Shown: positions 9,282-49,993 of the stretch, one piece after another
How positions within the stretch are numbered: position 1 is the stretch's first letter
Layout of the letters: every line of letters starts with the position of its first letter
Assembly: GCF_003113265.1 (NCBI RefSeq)
Contig: NZ_PUIV01000001.1
Coordinates: 310,001-374,000 of the forward strand
From: Methylosinus sporium
Lineage (GTDB): Bacteria; Pseudomonadota; Alphaproteobacteria; Rhizobiales; Beijerinckiaceae
Length of the DNA stretch: 64,000 nucleotides
Direction: 5' to 3'
Translations under genes and position numbers: made by a program
The notes under the pieces: generated by a model
Told to the model about the DNA's origin: nothing
The model's database searches: none
The model's input: the letters and a program-made list of their open reading frames with translations, nothing else

Positions 9282-10022
9282 TCAGGCTCGCTTCTCTATT
9301 CCCGAGGCAAATCCCGCCTCCATCTCTTCCGGCTGCGCGAAATAGCGCAGCCACATCGGCTCCTTGCCCAGCTTGGCGATGAAGGCCTCATGGGCGGCGC
9401 GCTCCGCCTCGGTGAGCAGCGGCGCGAGCTTTTGCGGACGGCTGCGCAGCAATTCGCCGCCGCCCGCTTCCGCCAGAGTCGCAGCGTCCGCTTGCAATAT
9501 CAGCGCGGATTGGCGGCCGCCCATCAGCTCCGCATAGACTTCCGCCAGCAGGCCGGCGTCCAGCAGCGCGCCATGCTTGTCGCGGCGCGTGAGATCGACG
9601 CCATAACGCTGGCAGAGCGCGTCCAGCGTGTTGGAGGCGCCCGGATGCCGGCGGCGGGCGAGGGTCAGCGTATCGACGACGCGATCGAAGGGGATCGCCT
9701 CCATCCCCAACAGGCCGAGCTCGAAATTGACGAAGCGCATGTCGAATTCGGCATTGTGCGCGACGAGGGCGGCGTCGCCGACGAATTCGAGAAAGCTCTG
9801 CGCGATTTCGCGAAATTTCTTCTGGCCGGTGAGAAAGGCCGAGGAGAGGCCATGCACGCGAAACGCCTCCTCCGGCATGTCGCGTTCTGGATCGAGATAG
9901 AAATGGAACGTGCGGCCGGAAGGGATCAGATTGGAGATCTCGACGGCGCCGATCTCGACGATGCGATGACCTTTGGTCGGGTCGAGACCGGTCGTCTCCG
10001 TGTCGAAGACGATCTCACGCAT
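9282..10022 (-). CDS. dnaQ: DNA polymerase III epsilon subunit (3'-5' proofreading exonuclease)
   Basis: 246 residues. DEDDh exonuclease that proofreads for the replicative polymerase. The metal-binding and catalytic residues are all present: Asp7 and Glu9 in FDTETTG, Asp94 in HNAEFD, His150 and Asp155 in HGALLDA. The C-terminal third is the tether that binds the alpha subunit. It follows coaE by 21 bp in a maf-coaE-dnaQ minus-strand operon, which is the standard gene order on this side of the alphaproteobacterial origin. Confidence 0.96.
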   Translation of the reverse strand: MREIVFDTETTGLDPTKGHRIVEIGAVEISNLIPSGRTFHFYLDPERDMPEEAFRVHGLSSAFLTGQKKFREIAQSFLEFVGDAALVAHNAEFDMRFVNFELGLLGMEAIPFDRVVDTLTLARRRHPGASNTLDALCQRYGVDLTRRDKHGALLDAGLLAEVYAELMGGRQSALILQADAATLAEAGGGELLRSRPQKLAPLLTEAERAAHEAFIAKLGKEPMWLRYFAQPEEMEAGFASGIEKRA

Positions 10023-47055: not shown

Positions 47056-47183
47056 GCGGATGGGTCCTACAGGGCCTCGGGCGCGCGGGGCGCTTTCCGG
47101 CGCCCTTTAGCAAATCGTCGCAAAAGGCGCAAAGCAGGCAATCCTGTGGCGGCGGCGGTCGCGCCGACAGCCGCTTGCTGTAC

Positions 47184-47205
47184 GAGACGATCGGTCGTAT
47201 AAAAC
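47184..47205. promoter_or_regulatory. Candidate TetR operator O1 (upstream of the TetR gene)
   Basis: GAGACGATCGGTCGTATAAAAC, with an inverted core (ACGA..TCGGTCGT), lies just before the regulator start codon at 47210. A closely similar sequence follows the gene at 47820-47841. TetR proteins commonly repress themselves and a neighbour through such paired sites. Confidence 0.6.
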
Positions 47206-47209
47206 CGTC

Positions 47210-47803
47210 ATGAGCAGACGGGACGTGAACGATATTCGGCGCAAGCTCCTGGATCAGGGCGTCGCTTTGCTGATGGAGCAGGGCTATCACGGCACCGGCC
47301 TGCACGAGCTGGTGCAGAGCGTCGGCGTGCCCAAGGGCTCGTTCTACAATTACTTCCCCAGCAAGGAAGCGTTCAGCGCCGAGGTGGTGAAGCATTATAT
47401 CGACCCCTTCATCGCCCAGCTCGACGCGCATCTCGCGCGCACCGACGTCGGCGCAGATGCGGCGCTCCGGGCATATTTCGACGAGCTGATCGCCGATACG
47501 GAGCGTCGGGATTTCAAAGGCGGCTGCCTGCTCGGCAATCTGATCGGCGAGATCGGCGACACCAGCGATCTGTGCCAGACATCGCTGCGCGAGGCGGTGC
47601 GGCGCTATAGAGACAAGCTGCGGGAGGGAGTCGCGCGCGGCCAGGCGGAGGGCTGCTTCCGCCGCGATCTCGACGCCAAGGAAATGGCCGACTTTCTCGT
47701 GGACGCGTGGCAGGGCTCGCTTCTGCGCATGAAGATCGAGCGCTCCGTCCGTCCGCTGACCCAGTTCCGCGACATGCTGCTGAACGGCTATTTCCGCGCC
47801 TGA
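47210..47803 (+). CDS. TetR family transcriptional regulator
   Basis: 197 residues. N-terminal HTH (about 5-52) with GYHGTGLHELVQSVGVPKGSFYNYFPSKEAF, the classic TetR DNA-reading block, then an all-helical ligand domain with FKGGCLLGNLIGEIGD containing a Cys (Cys105-like position) that could sense electrophiles, as in NemR/AcuR relatives. Operator-like sites lie on both sides of the gene. Likely represses itself and the downstream three-gene cassette. Confidence 0.9.
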   Translation: MSRRDVNDIRRKLLDQGVALLMEQGYHGTGLHELVQSVGVPKGSFYNYFPSKEAFSAEVVKHYIDPFIAQLDAHLARTDVGADAALRAYFDELIADTERRDFKGGCLLGNLIGEIGDTSDLCQTSLREAVRRYRDKLREGVARGQAEGCFRRDLDAKEMADFLVDAWQGSLLRMKIERSVRPLTQFRDMLLNGYFRA

Positions 47804-47819
47804 TTTTTTGCCCGGATTT

Positions 47820-47841
47820 GAGACGACCGGTCATTTTAAAA
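47820..47841. promoter_or_regulatory. Candidate TetR operator O2 (upstream of the SQR-like gene)
   Basis: GAGACGACCGGTCATTTTAAAA matches O1 in GAGACGA-Y-CGGTC-R-T and the A-rich end, with GACCGGTC as a perfect palindrome. It lies 105 bp before the SQR-like start, in the only gap of the cassette. Confidence 0.6.
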
Positions 47842-47945
47842 GAGGTCGAGTCCGAGGCGAACGACCGCCCCGGAGGAGCCGCCGCGCCCAGAGCGCGTCG
47901 AAAAACCGTGGGCGCAAAAGCCCTGCGGAAAAAAGGGAGGAAGCA

Positions 47946-49136
47946 GTGGCCAAGCGCATACTCGTCGTCGGCGGCGGCATAGGCGGAACGATGACCGCCA
48001 ATAGCATCGTCGCGAAGCTCTACCCCGAGATATCGGACGGCTCGGTCCAGGTGACCATGCTCTCCGATTCGCCCTGGCATTTTTACAAGCCGGCTTTCAT
48101 GTATGTCGCCTTCGACATGTTCTTCGAGGGCGAGCTGCGCCGCAAGCAGAGCTCCTTGCTGCGACCGGAGATCGAGTTCATCGTCGACAAGGTGGACCGA
48201 TTCGATTTCGTCGGCTCCAGCGTGACGACGAAGAGCGGCCGGAAAATCGGCTATGACTATATCGTCGTCTCGACCGGATGCCTGCCGGCGCCCGAACGCA
48301 TCCCGGGACTGAAAGAGGCGGGCGATTATTTCTATCAATATGAGCCGGCGCGTCGCCTCGCCGACAAGCTCCGCGGCTTCGAGAAGGGCCGCATCTTCAT
48401 CACCGTCAATTTTCCCAAGACGCCCAATGTTCCGCATCAATGCGGCATAGCGCCGATCGAGACGACGCTGATGCTCGACGAATATCTGCGCCGCAAAGGC
48501 GTGCGCGATCAGGTCGAGATCGTCTACACCTATCCCACCGTCTCGCAGCTTTTGCGCAATTGCCTCTTCCTCCAGCAGGAGGTCTGCGAGGTGCTGCCCT
48601 CCGTCTTCGAGAGCAAGGGAATCAAATTCCAGCGCGGATTCACGCTGGATTCGGTCGATCCCGATCGCAAGATCGCGCGCTCCGCGGAAGGACAAGAGGA
48701 AAATTTCGATCTGCTGATGTGCACGCCGCCGATTCGTGCGGTCGATGCGGTGATCGAAAGCGGCGTCTCGCAGGCGATGAACAATGAAGGCTGGCTGCCC
48801 ACCGACCGCCGAACGTTGCAGATCGAAGGCTACGCCAACGCCTATGTGATGGGCGACACGGTCGATCTGCCGATCAGCAAGGCCGGCGGCTCCTGTCACA
48901 ACCAATGCCCGGTCATCGCCAATAATATCGCCGGCGACATTCGCATCGGCCGCACGGTCGACGCCTATGACGGCAAGGTCCAGGCCGTGGCGCAAATGGG
49001 CCTCGAGCTCGGAATGCCGCTCTGGTACGACTATGACGAGGACGTTCATCCGACGCCGCCCACCAAGCTCGGCGGGCTTCTCCGCAAGGCTTTCAACCGC
49101 GGAATCTATTGGTCCGTCGCGCGCGGCGTGATCTGA
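47946..49136 (+). CDS. SQR-like FAD oxidoreductase (sulfide:quinone reductase family)
   Basis: 396 residues from GTG 47946 behind GGGAGG. N-terminal VVGGGIGGT FAD motif and a VMGD block in the C-terminal half. Three cysteines occupy SQR-type positions: Cys112 in STGC, Cys166 in PHQCGIAP (like the PYKCPPAP block) and Cys317 in GSCHNQ, with further Cys321. The end has an amphipathic membrane-binding tail. It should move electrons to quinone, from sulfide or another thiol/persulfide; the substrate is unproved. DUF1641 and IscU-like genes follow, with the same TetR control. Confidence 0.82.
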   Translation: MAKRILVVGGGIGGTMTANSIVAKLYPEISDGSVQVTMLSDSPWHFYKPAFMYVAFDMFFEGELRRKQSSLLRPEIEFIVDKVDRFDFVGSSVTTKSGRKIGYDYIVVSTGCLPAPERIPGLKEAGDYFYQYEPARRLADKLRGFEKGRIFITVNFPKTPNVPHQCGIAPIETTLMLDEYLRRKGVRDQVEIVYTYPTVSQLLRNCLFLQQEVCEVLPSVFESKGIKFQRGFTLDSVDPDRKIARSAEGQEENFDLLMCTPPIRAVDAVIESGVSQAMNNEGWLPTDRRTLQIEGYANAYVMGDTVDLPISKAGGSCHNQCPVIANNIAGDIRIGRTVDAYDGKVQAVAQMGLELGMPLWYDYDEDVHPTPPTKLGGLLRKAFNRGIYWSVARGVI

Positions 49137-49154
49137 AAAAGCGAGGGATGAGCG

Positions 49155-49559
49155 ATGAGCACGACCGAACTCGACATGCGCAATGAAAGCGCCTCGCCGA
49201 CGCTCGACGAGGCGACGCGAAAGGGAATCGCCGATCTTCTCGAGAAAGCCTCGCCTCTGCTTCAGGGCCGGCGCTTTCACAATATCGTCGACCTTCTCTC
49301 TCTCGCTTCCGACGCTGTGGACATGGCCGACGACGCGATGATCCAAAAGCTGATGAAAGCCTATGAGGAGTCGATCGGCGCCGCCTGGACGCTCGGCAAC
49401 GCCGCCCGCTTCGCCGCCAATGAGGCGTCGCGCAAGCCGACTCCGTCCCTGCTCGGCCTGCTGCGCGCGGCGGGCGACGAGGATGTGCGGCGCGGGCTGC
49501 ATTTCGCGCTGCTGTTCCTCGCCGTGCTCGGGCGGCAGACGCGCGACGAGCCGGCATGA
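49155..49559 (+). CDS. DUF1641 domain protein
   Basis: 134 residues, hydrophilic then helical. LLQGRRFHNIVDLLSLASDAVDMADD is the recognisable DUF1641 block, and a long C-terminal hydrophobic patch (GLHFALLFLAVLG) follows. Such genes accompany SQR-like and formate dehydrogenase genes; function unknown. 18 bp after the SQR-like stop and overlapping the next gene by 4 bp. Confidence 0.78.
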   Translation: MSTTELDMRNESASPTLDEATRKGIADLLEKASPLLQGRRFHNIVDLLSLASDAVDMADDAMIQKLMKAYEESIGAAWTLGNAARFAANEASRKPTPSLLGLLRAAGDEDVRRGLHFALLFLAVLGRQTRDEPA

Positions 49560-49993
49560 CCGACATAGCGCTCGCCGCGCTCTATGAGCGACGCGTGCGC
49601 GATTGGGCGCGGCGAGCGCGCGACGATTTGCGCCTCGCCGACGCCGACGTCTCCGTCACGCGGACGAGCCCGATCTGCGGCAGCAGGCTGACGCTCGATC
49701 TGCGTTGCGAGAACGGCCGCATCGTCGCTCTCGGCCATCGCGCGCGGGCCTGCACGCTCGGAATGGCCGCGACGGCGATCGTCGTCGTGGGGGCGATCGG
49801 CGAAACGCTCGCCGATGTCTTCATGGCCGGCGAAGCGCTGGTGCAGCTTCTGGACGGCGCCGACGTCGGCTTTCCCGAGAAGTGGCGGGAGCTGGAGATA
49901 TTCGCTGCGGCGCGCGCCTTCCCGATGCGGCGCGGGTCTATCCTGCTGCCCTTCGACGCGCTCGCCGAGGCCTCGTCGCGCCTTACTCCGTGA
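49556..49993 (+). CDS. IscU/SufU-like scaffold with the third Cys ligand replaced by Ser
   Basis: 145 residues. Iron-sulfur cluster scaffold fold: first ligand Cys41 in SPICGSRL, second Cys66 in RARACTLGMAA. At the usual third position the sequence is RRGSILLPFDAL, with Ser128 where IscU/SufU relatives have Cys. It may carry a cluster with other ligands, or serve as a persulfide/sulfur carrier rather than a standard scaffold. Third gene of the TetR-linked cassette. Its end overlaps the convergent gene at 49983 by 11 bp. Confidence 0.82.
   Translation: MTDIALAALYERRVRDWARRARDDLRLADADVSVTRTSPICGSRLTLDLRCENGRIVALGHRARACTLGMAATAIVVVGAIGETLADVFMAGEALVQLLDGADVGFPEKWRELEIFAAARAFPMRRGSILLPFDALAEASSRLTP

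Follow-up and report, generated by a model that had tools for sequence, protein, structure and literature searches.

What might a flavoprotein resembling sulfide:quinone oxidoreductase (SQR), a protein of the DUF1641 family and an IscU-like protein do together when they are encoded behind a TetR-type regulator? The question is raised by a four-gene cassette in Methylosinus sporium, located in a 64,000-nucleotide stretch (RefSeq assembly GCF_003113265.1, contig NZ_PUIV01000001.1, positions 310,001 to 374,000, forward strand), which is denoted here as the window. The host is probably a methanotroph, since its genome contains a pmoA-family gene. Comparison of the cassette with its relatives led us to read it as a mobile, inducible unit that would oxidize sulfide (or persulfide) into the quinone pool, to which we assign a probability of about 0.6 on sequence evidence. 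The observation at the centre of this reading is that the SQR-like gene was met in all its close relatives together with DUF1641.

An SQR-fold flavoprotein without the second catalytic cysteine

In the textbook view, an SQR is a single-subunit enzyme whose redox centre consists of two cysteines. The flavoprotein of the cassette contains the flavin adenine dinucleotide (FAD)-binding motif GxGxxG as GGGIGG at residues 9–14, and its AlphaFold model scored 88 in the predicted local distance difference test (pLDDT) and 0.88 in predicted template modelling (pTM). The model was superimposed on human SQR over 375 residues (Z 44.4, root-mean-square deviation 2.4), on the SQRs of A. ferrooxidans and Aquifex with Z of approximately 40, and on NDH-2 with Z of approximately 36, indicating that the modelled protein has the SQR fold. 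Cys166 aligned with the first catalytic cysteine (VKCAGAP of human SQR) and was invariant in 57 of 57 sequences. The canonical second cysteine (YTSC of human SQR, TIVC of 3h8i) is Ala347, and a sister family of 38 to 42% identity retains it. Because this replacement occurs in all members, the protein is called SQR-like here and is not filed as a canonical SQR. The best curated model was that of the type III SQR (NCBIfam NF049943, selenoprotein subtype), for which 248.4 bits were obtained under a cut-off of 525.

Three other cysteines are nearly constant, Cys112 (57/57), Cys206 (55/57) and Cys317 (55/57), none of which is found in the sister family. The members from Arcobacter and Sulfurimonas (L083 and L084) keep Cys112, Cys166 and Ala347 and are devoid of Cys206, Cys214 and Cys317, which makes Cys112 a possible partner of Cys166. 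This pattern, with alanine at position 347 throughout, would suit an enzyme that oxidizes another sulfur compound (methanethiol, glutathione persulfide or an organic persulfide) and passes the electrons to the quinone pool, with Cys166 and either Cys112 or Cys317 replacing the usual pair. Such a substrate is also suggested by the orthologue of the window TetR that precedes the methanethiol oxidase gene mtoX, as described below, and one MtoX study gives sulfane sulfur, not H2S, as the product (PMC10936201). Yet the sister family, which has the usual cysteine pair, has the same DUF1641 and sulfurtransferase neighbours, and this favours a shared substrate class that includes sulfide; the Arcobacter and Sulfurimonas members, moreover, manage without Cys206 and Cys317. 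We consider a substrate other than sulfide unlikely, albeit the best survivor among the alternatives.

DUF1641 as a constant partner

The protein encoded next to the flavoprotein scored 36 bits against Pfam PF07849 (DUF1641; gathering cut-off 21). Relatives of the cassette were collected with query-derived patterns, by which distant members are under-sampled, and 55 loci with 56 to 89% protein identity were obtained from genome records of Alpha-, Beta- and Gammaproteobacteria and Campylobacterota. DUF1641 lies directly downstream of the SQR-like gene on the same strand at all 56 close loci, that is, these 55 and a congener of the host; at one of them (L082) it is split over two frames. It also directly follows the SQR gene of the sister family at 8 of 9 loci, the ninth of which stops at a contig edge, whereas it follows none of 48 distant SQR- or NDH-like genes. 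The adjacency count scored the plasmid loci L204 and L206 as negative, which is believed to come from overlapping stop-to-stop frames; their annotation places DUF1641 immediately after SQR in both, and L205 is without annotation. Seen from the other side, DUF1641 was detected in 3 of 385 genomes of the class and 2 of 398 of the phylum, which are four distinct genomes. It adjoins this kind of SQR in three of them (the window, G145 and G665); in the fourth, G229, an open frame runs off the stretch, which was taken as a contig end, and an IscU-like gene follows.

A DUF1641 profile was built from 36 sequences, some of which came from the loci counted for adjacency, and was compared with the PDB. 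Only four sequences matched at E < 0.01, namely YjlC (9snk, 2e-5), the "NDH-2 membrane coupling protein" (9pxk, 4.4e-5), ForE1 (8rqz, 9e-5) and HucM, the membrane-associated subunit of Huc (7uus, 0.0087). All are coupling or membrane subunits of electron transfer, and the next match, an unrelated one, was at 0.025. The structure matches of the SQR-like model likewise include the YjlC-YjlD entry, matched via chain B. ForE is reported to be needed both for formate:menadione activity and for the binding and reduction of menaquinone (PMC8808070), and HucM is described as forming a hydrophobic tube that reaches the membrane and in which menaquinone can be held (PMC10017518). On the basis of these family relationships, we propose that DUF1641 is a dedicated quinone-coupling subunit of the SQR-like flavoprotein.

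SQRs are commonly described as self-sufficient monotopic enzymes. It can hence be argued that the flavoprotein detoxifies sulfide by itself and that DUF1641 and the IscU-like protein are accessories, for instance in folding or storage, outside the transfer of electrons and sulfur; a C-terminal helix in the model (residues 374–392) could then be its membrane anchor. The complete association with DUF1641 at the close loci, set against its absence from the distant ones, and the match of the profile to coupling subunits both speak against this idea, making it rather improbable. The pairing of SQR with DUF1641 was not found in the literature searched, which leaves out most subscription papers, and the main text of PMC13047784, as far as it was available, mentions neither DUF1641, NifU nor IscU.

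Regulator and operators

The window TetR possesses the Pfam domains TetR_N and TetR_C_13, and falls under the curated NCBIfam cut-offs for AcuR (149 of 247 bits) and CurR (112 of 300 bits). Alignment to NemR (4yze) showed that the position of Cys106, which we take to be the reactive cysteine of NemR/AcuR/CurR-type regulators, is retained, as it is throughout the NemR-like group (13 of 13 rows). In the phylogenetic tree, from which the truncated tetR of L073 was excluded, the window TetR pairs with an 82% identical orthologue from another genus (support 99/95), and both lie inside a 14-row clade (100/99) that also contains the TetRs linked to SQR in Methylococcaceae and Nitrotoga. The orthologue, in genome G017 (L178, 5954–9818), has the same twin operators and is followed by mtoX, identified by 755 bits against the curated methanethiol oxidase cut-off of 650, and by a MauG-like gene; this TetR is thus a candidate regulator of mtoX. 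The SQR-DUF1641 core itself is served by three unrelated regulators, which are a mostly divergent winged-helix protein (26 of the 55 loci), a NemR-like TetR (11) and another TetR (4).

Two similar sites bracket tetR, as a preliminary description of the sequence had reported. A 21-letter pattern derived from both, GAGACGANCGGTCRTNTNAAA, was searched in the 3.79 Mb genome with a control, and gave exactly two matches, both at this locus, and none for the control. The 15-base operator core likewise has only these two perfect matches genome-wide, and two further places differ by one base. The 13-base core is weak when taken alone in the window (13 places at up to 2 mismatches, with 6.9 expected by chance); an exact copy on the − strand (9986–9998) lies within an open reading frame (9282–10022) and was taken as a chance occurrence, not an operator. 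Comparative conservation is the stronger evidence. At each of the ten loci where an intact NemR-like TetR adjoins this SQR, a core-like palindrome is present no more than about 45 bp upstream of tetR; the Nitrotoga locus L081 has a weak match, with 3-mismatch sites only. Matches with up to two mismatches at the loci with a NemR-like TetR are all upstream of tetR, a rhodanese gene or an SCO4226-like gene. The background, composed of 44 loci without such a TetR and not of random genomes, held 1 match at up to one mismatch and 10 at up to two in 576 kb. Operator 1 is enclosed by the hexamers TTGCTG and TATAAA at a spacing of 17 bases, and TTGACA-like and TATATT-like hexamers flank the same operator in relatives. 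The tetR start codon follows the −10-like hexamer by six bases (47198–47212), so that the mRNA may be nearly leaderless. The SCO4226-like gene (PF14026) stands between tetR and SQR in L072–L079, L081, L082 and L085 (Nitrotoga and Methylococcaceae), mostly with an operator of its own, and may contribute to the response to sulfide.

The idea of an operator specific to the cassette was rejected, as many NemR/AcuR-like tetR genes have this core nearby. The operator marks this kind of TetR and not sulfide as such, because distant relatives share the core, among them a 43% identical TetR that stands with the same operators ahead of N-ethylmaleimide reductase. This relative, with the NemR/AcuR-like character of the window TetR and its Cys106, would fit an electrophile-stress module of the NemR type, with quinones or aldehydes both as the signal for the repressor and as the compounds that the flavoprotein removes. 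The targets of these regulators nevertheless vary by lineage, and those closest in the TetR phylogeny are the sulfur genes mtoX, SQR and rhodanese; electrophile sensing by the TetR is conceivable, and an electrophile function of the whole module is quite improbable.

The IscU-like protein

The metal or cluster ligands of SufU/IscU scaffolds are three cysteines and one aspartate. The last protein of the cassette contains a NifU_N domain barely above the Pfam cut-off (23.5 bits against 22) and reached 47 bits with the SufU model, under its cut-off of 92.5. It retains Cys41 and Cys66, and has Ser43 in place of the aspartate and Ser128 in place of the third cysteine. Among 35 IscU-like rows, Cys66 is present in all, Cys41 in 31 and the third cysteine in none, while position 43 is serine in 31 and aspartate in 4; the four rows without Cys41 form a Halomonas-type branch. 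The solved NifU-like structure 5uft shows the same degenerate type. A separate IscU-like paralogue (28–31% identical) was found in the host and three congeners (4/4), and those that were read are degenerate in the same manner, so the loss of ligands appears to be older than the cassette. From these alignments, the protein is best described as a degenerate SufU-like protein, and the sulfur-cluster-like scaffold seen in the preliminary description is rejected for the window protein. Assembly or repair of iron-sulfur clusters under sulfide stress, which the marginal NifU_N domain alone would suggest, is very improbable in view of the missing ligands, the further loss of Cys41 in the Halomonas branch and the equally degenerate paralogue.

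The position of the gene varies: one group has it behind DUF1641, another ahead of SQR. Elsewhere, the SQR-DUF1641 core stands near genes for TusA and DsrE-like proteins or for rhodanese, and near TusA in haloarchaea as well. Since these proteins accompany the same core, the IscU-like protein is proposed to be a sulfur carrier, and a role as acceptor of sulfane sulfur is likelier than one as an iron-sulfur scaffold.

Gene order, insertion and spread

Coordinates are collected in Table 1. As described earlier, the three genes behind tetR are tightly packed, with a gap of 18 bp between the SQR-like gene and DUF1641 and an ATGA overlap between the last two. Comparison with congener G105 by blastn showed matches that end at 47139 and restart at 49987, and the two ends are 12 bases apart in G105. 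The flanking genes, leuD and a trypsin-like gene, are 130 bp apart in this genome, which does not have the unit. The four genes are a clean insertion between leuD and the trypsin-like gene, with limits that agree with the coordinates given in the preliminary description.

Table 1. Features of the cassette in the window.
Feature	Position	Strand	Basis or remark
Inserted unit	47140..49986	.	Approximate limits from blastn to congener G105
Promoter-like TTGCTG-17-TATAAA of tetR	47175..47203	+	Read from sequence; encloses operator 1
Operator 1, near-palindrome ACGAyCGGTCGT, GAGACGATCGGTCGTATAAAA	47184..47204	+	Conserved in G042 and upstream of relatives' tetR
NemR/AcuR-like TetR repressor gene, 197 residues, Cys106 and Cys122	47210..47803	+	Pfam, NCBIfam, alignment, tree
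Operator 2, GAGACGACCGGTCATTTTAAA	47820..47840	+	About 105 bases ahead of the SQR-like start codon
SQR-fold flavoprotein, 396 residues, GTG start preceded by GGGAGG	47946..49136	+	Domain, model, alignment
DUF1641 protein, 134 residues, proposed quinone-coupling subunit	49155..49559	+	PF07849, profile matches, adjacency
Degenerate SufU/IscU-like protein, 145 residues, proposed sulfane-sulfur carrier	49556..49993	+	NifU_N, SufU model, alignments

Within the host's family, 119 genomes were searched, and the close SQR family (at least 97% identity) was detected in only two, those of the window and of one congener, G042. The triad SQR-DUF1641-IscU-like is present at 33 of the 55 loci and a NemR-like TetR with SQR-DUF1641 at 11. 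The preliminary description had called for a search for all four genes in other genomes; the SQR-DUF1641 core was conserved in every close relative, and the full set was not found beyond the window and G042 among the loci surveyed. Plasmid records of the pair come from Pseudomonas, Comamonas and Halobaculum. On pKLC102 of Pseudomonas aeruginosa (L203, 5962–7594), it is cargo amid the genes of a conjugative element, and on the Halobaculum plasmid (L206, 4762–6789), it belongs to a haloarchaeal TusA-SQR-DUF1641 operon. Spread by viruses found no support, as none of 600 pattern-matching stretches in viral_contigs encoded a relative. A record titled Bacillus subtilis SK6B4 (L039) contains an alphaproteobacterial-type cassette resembling that of Pseudochrobactrum, and is probably a mislabelled or mixed assembly.

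Proposed function

In the mechanism that we favour, the thiol-bearing TetR would repress itself and the three-gene operon through the two operators until it is modified, probably at Cys106, by accumulated sulfide or sulfane-sulfur species, whereupon the operon would be switched on. The flavoprotein would then draw electrons from sulfide to ubiquinone. DUF1641 would give the flavin access to quinone or to the membrane, which is the role reported for ForE, YjlC and HucM, or given in their names, with formate dehydrogenase, NDH-2 and Huc hydrogenase, respectively. Sulfane sulfur held on Cys166 would be handed to a carrier, presumably the degenerate SufU-like protein here and TusA/DsrE or rhodanese elsewhere. 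In a methanotroph, this would shield respiration and methane oxidation from sulfide while feeding electrons into the respiratory chain. Exposure of a methanotroph to H2S is reported to induce its type III SQR operon, which also encodes TusA and DsrE2, about 1.7-fold (PMC10205796), and this makes such a physiology plausible.

Several points weigh against sulfide oxidation by this route. With alanine at the second catalytic position in 57 of 57 members, the usual SQR chemistry cannot be taken for granted. DUF1641 matches PDB sequences weakly (E 2e-5 to 9e-3), and its helical model (pTM 0.44) gave no PDB fold match. The TetR family and its operator are broad, in that the operator is shared by relatives of the AcuR/CurR/NemR group, including one that precedes N-ethylmaleimide reductase, so an electrophile may act as inducer. 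At 22 of the 55 loci, no IscU-like gene is present, so it is not essential to the core. The view of the preliminary description, that of a sulfide, persulfide or electrophile-stress module and not a housekeeping one, nonetheless stands in its sulfide or persulfide part, owing to the rarity in the host's family, the insertion, the SQR fold and the TetR orthologue before the methanethiol oxidase gene.

Comparison with known systems and significance

Each part of the cassette comes from a known family; what appears new within the literature searched is the pairing of SQR with a DUF1641 subunit. Type III SQR operons, such as SQR-TusA-DsrE2 of Methylacidiphilum (PMC10205796), are similar in the SQR fold, the adjoining sulfur-carrier genes, the methanotrophic host and the best curated model. 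The cassette differs from them by its score of 248 of 525 bits, Ala347 for the second cysteine, a SufU-like protein in place of TusA/DsrE and a TetR of its own. Formate dehydrogenase ForCE of Bacillus subtilis is also a two-gene unit of an oxidoreductase and DUF1641, the latter of which enables quinone reduction; its catalytic subunit is a molybdoenzyme, unlike the flavoprotein of the cassette (PMC8808070). By their PDB names, YjlC-YjlD of B. subtilis and the "NDH-2 membrane coupling protein" resemble the cassette in pairing a DUF1641-like protein with an SQR-fold flavoprotein, whereas the YjlC-YjlD system oxidizes NADH. YjlD is presumably Ndh of B. subtilis, and we know of no sulfur-carrier gene for this system. 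The window TetR shares TetR_C_13, Cys106 and the GACCGGTC-type palindrome with the NemR, AcuR and CurR repressors, and differs in falling under the AcuR and CurR cut-offs and in having sulfur genes as its predicted targets.

A wider picture can be drawn tentatively, in which DUF1641 might be a general plug-in subunit for quinone coupling. The present family would be its sulfide-oxidizing branch, a two-subunit SQR that reaches the quinone via a DUF1641 oligomer, dispenses with the usual second cysteine, releases the sulfane sulfur to interchangeable carriers (degenerate SufU, TusA/DsrE or rhodanese) and shares a thiol-switch TetR with methanethiol oxidase. If DUF1641 is indeed a quinone-coupling subunit, one protein family serves the oxidation of formate, NADH, hydrogen and sulfide. 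The SQR family, whose range covers Alpha-, Beta- and Gammaproteobacteria, Campylobacterota and, at a greater distance, haloarchaea, was in no case met here without DUF1641, and its close members are devoid of one catalytic cysteine. The degenerate SufU-like protein gains a testable role, and a likely sulfide defence can be named for methanotrophs, whose habitat is where methane and sulfide meet.

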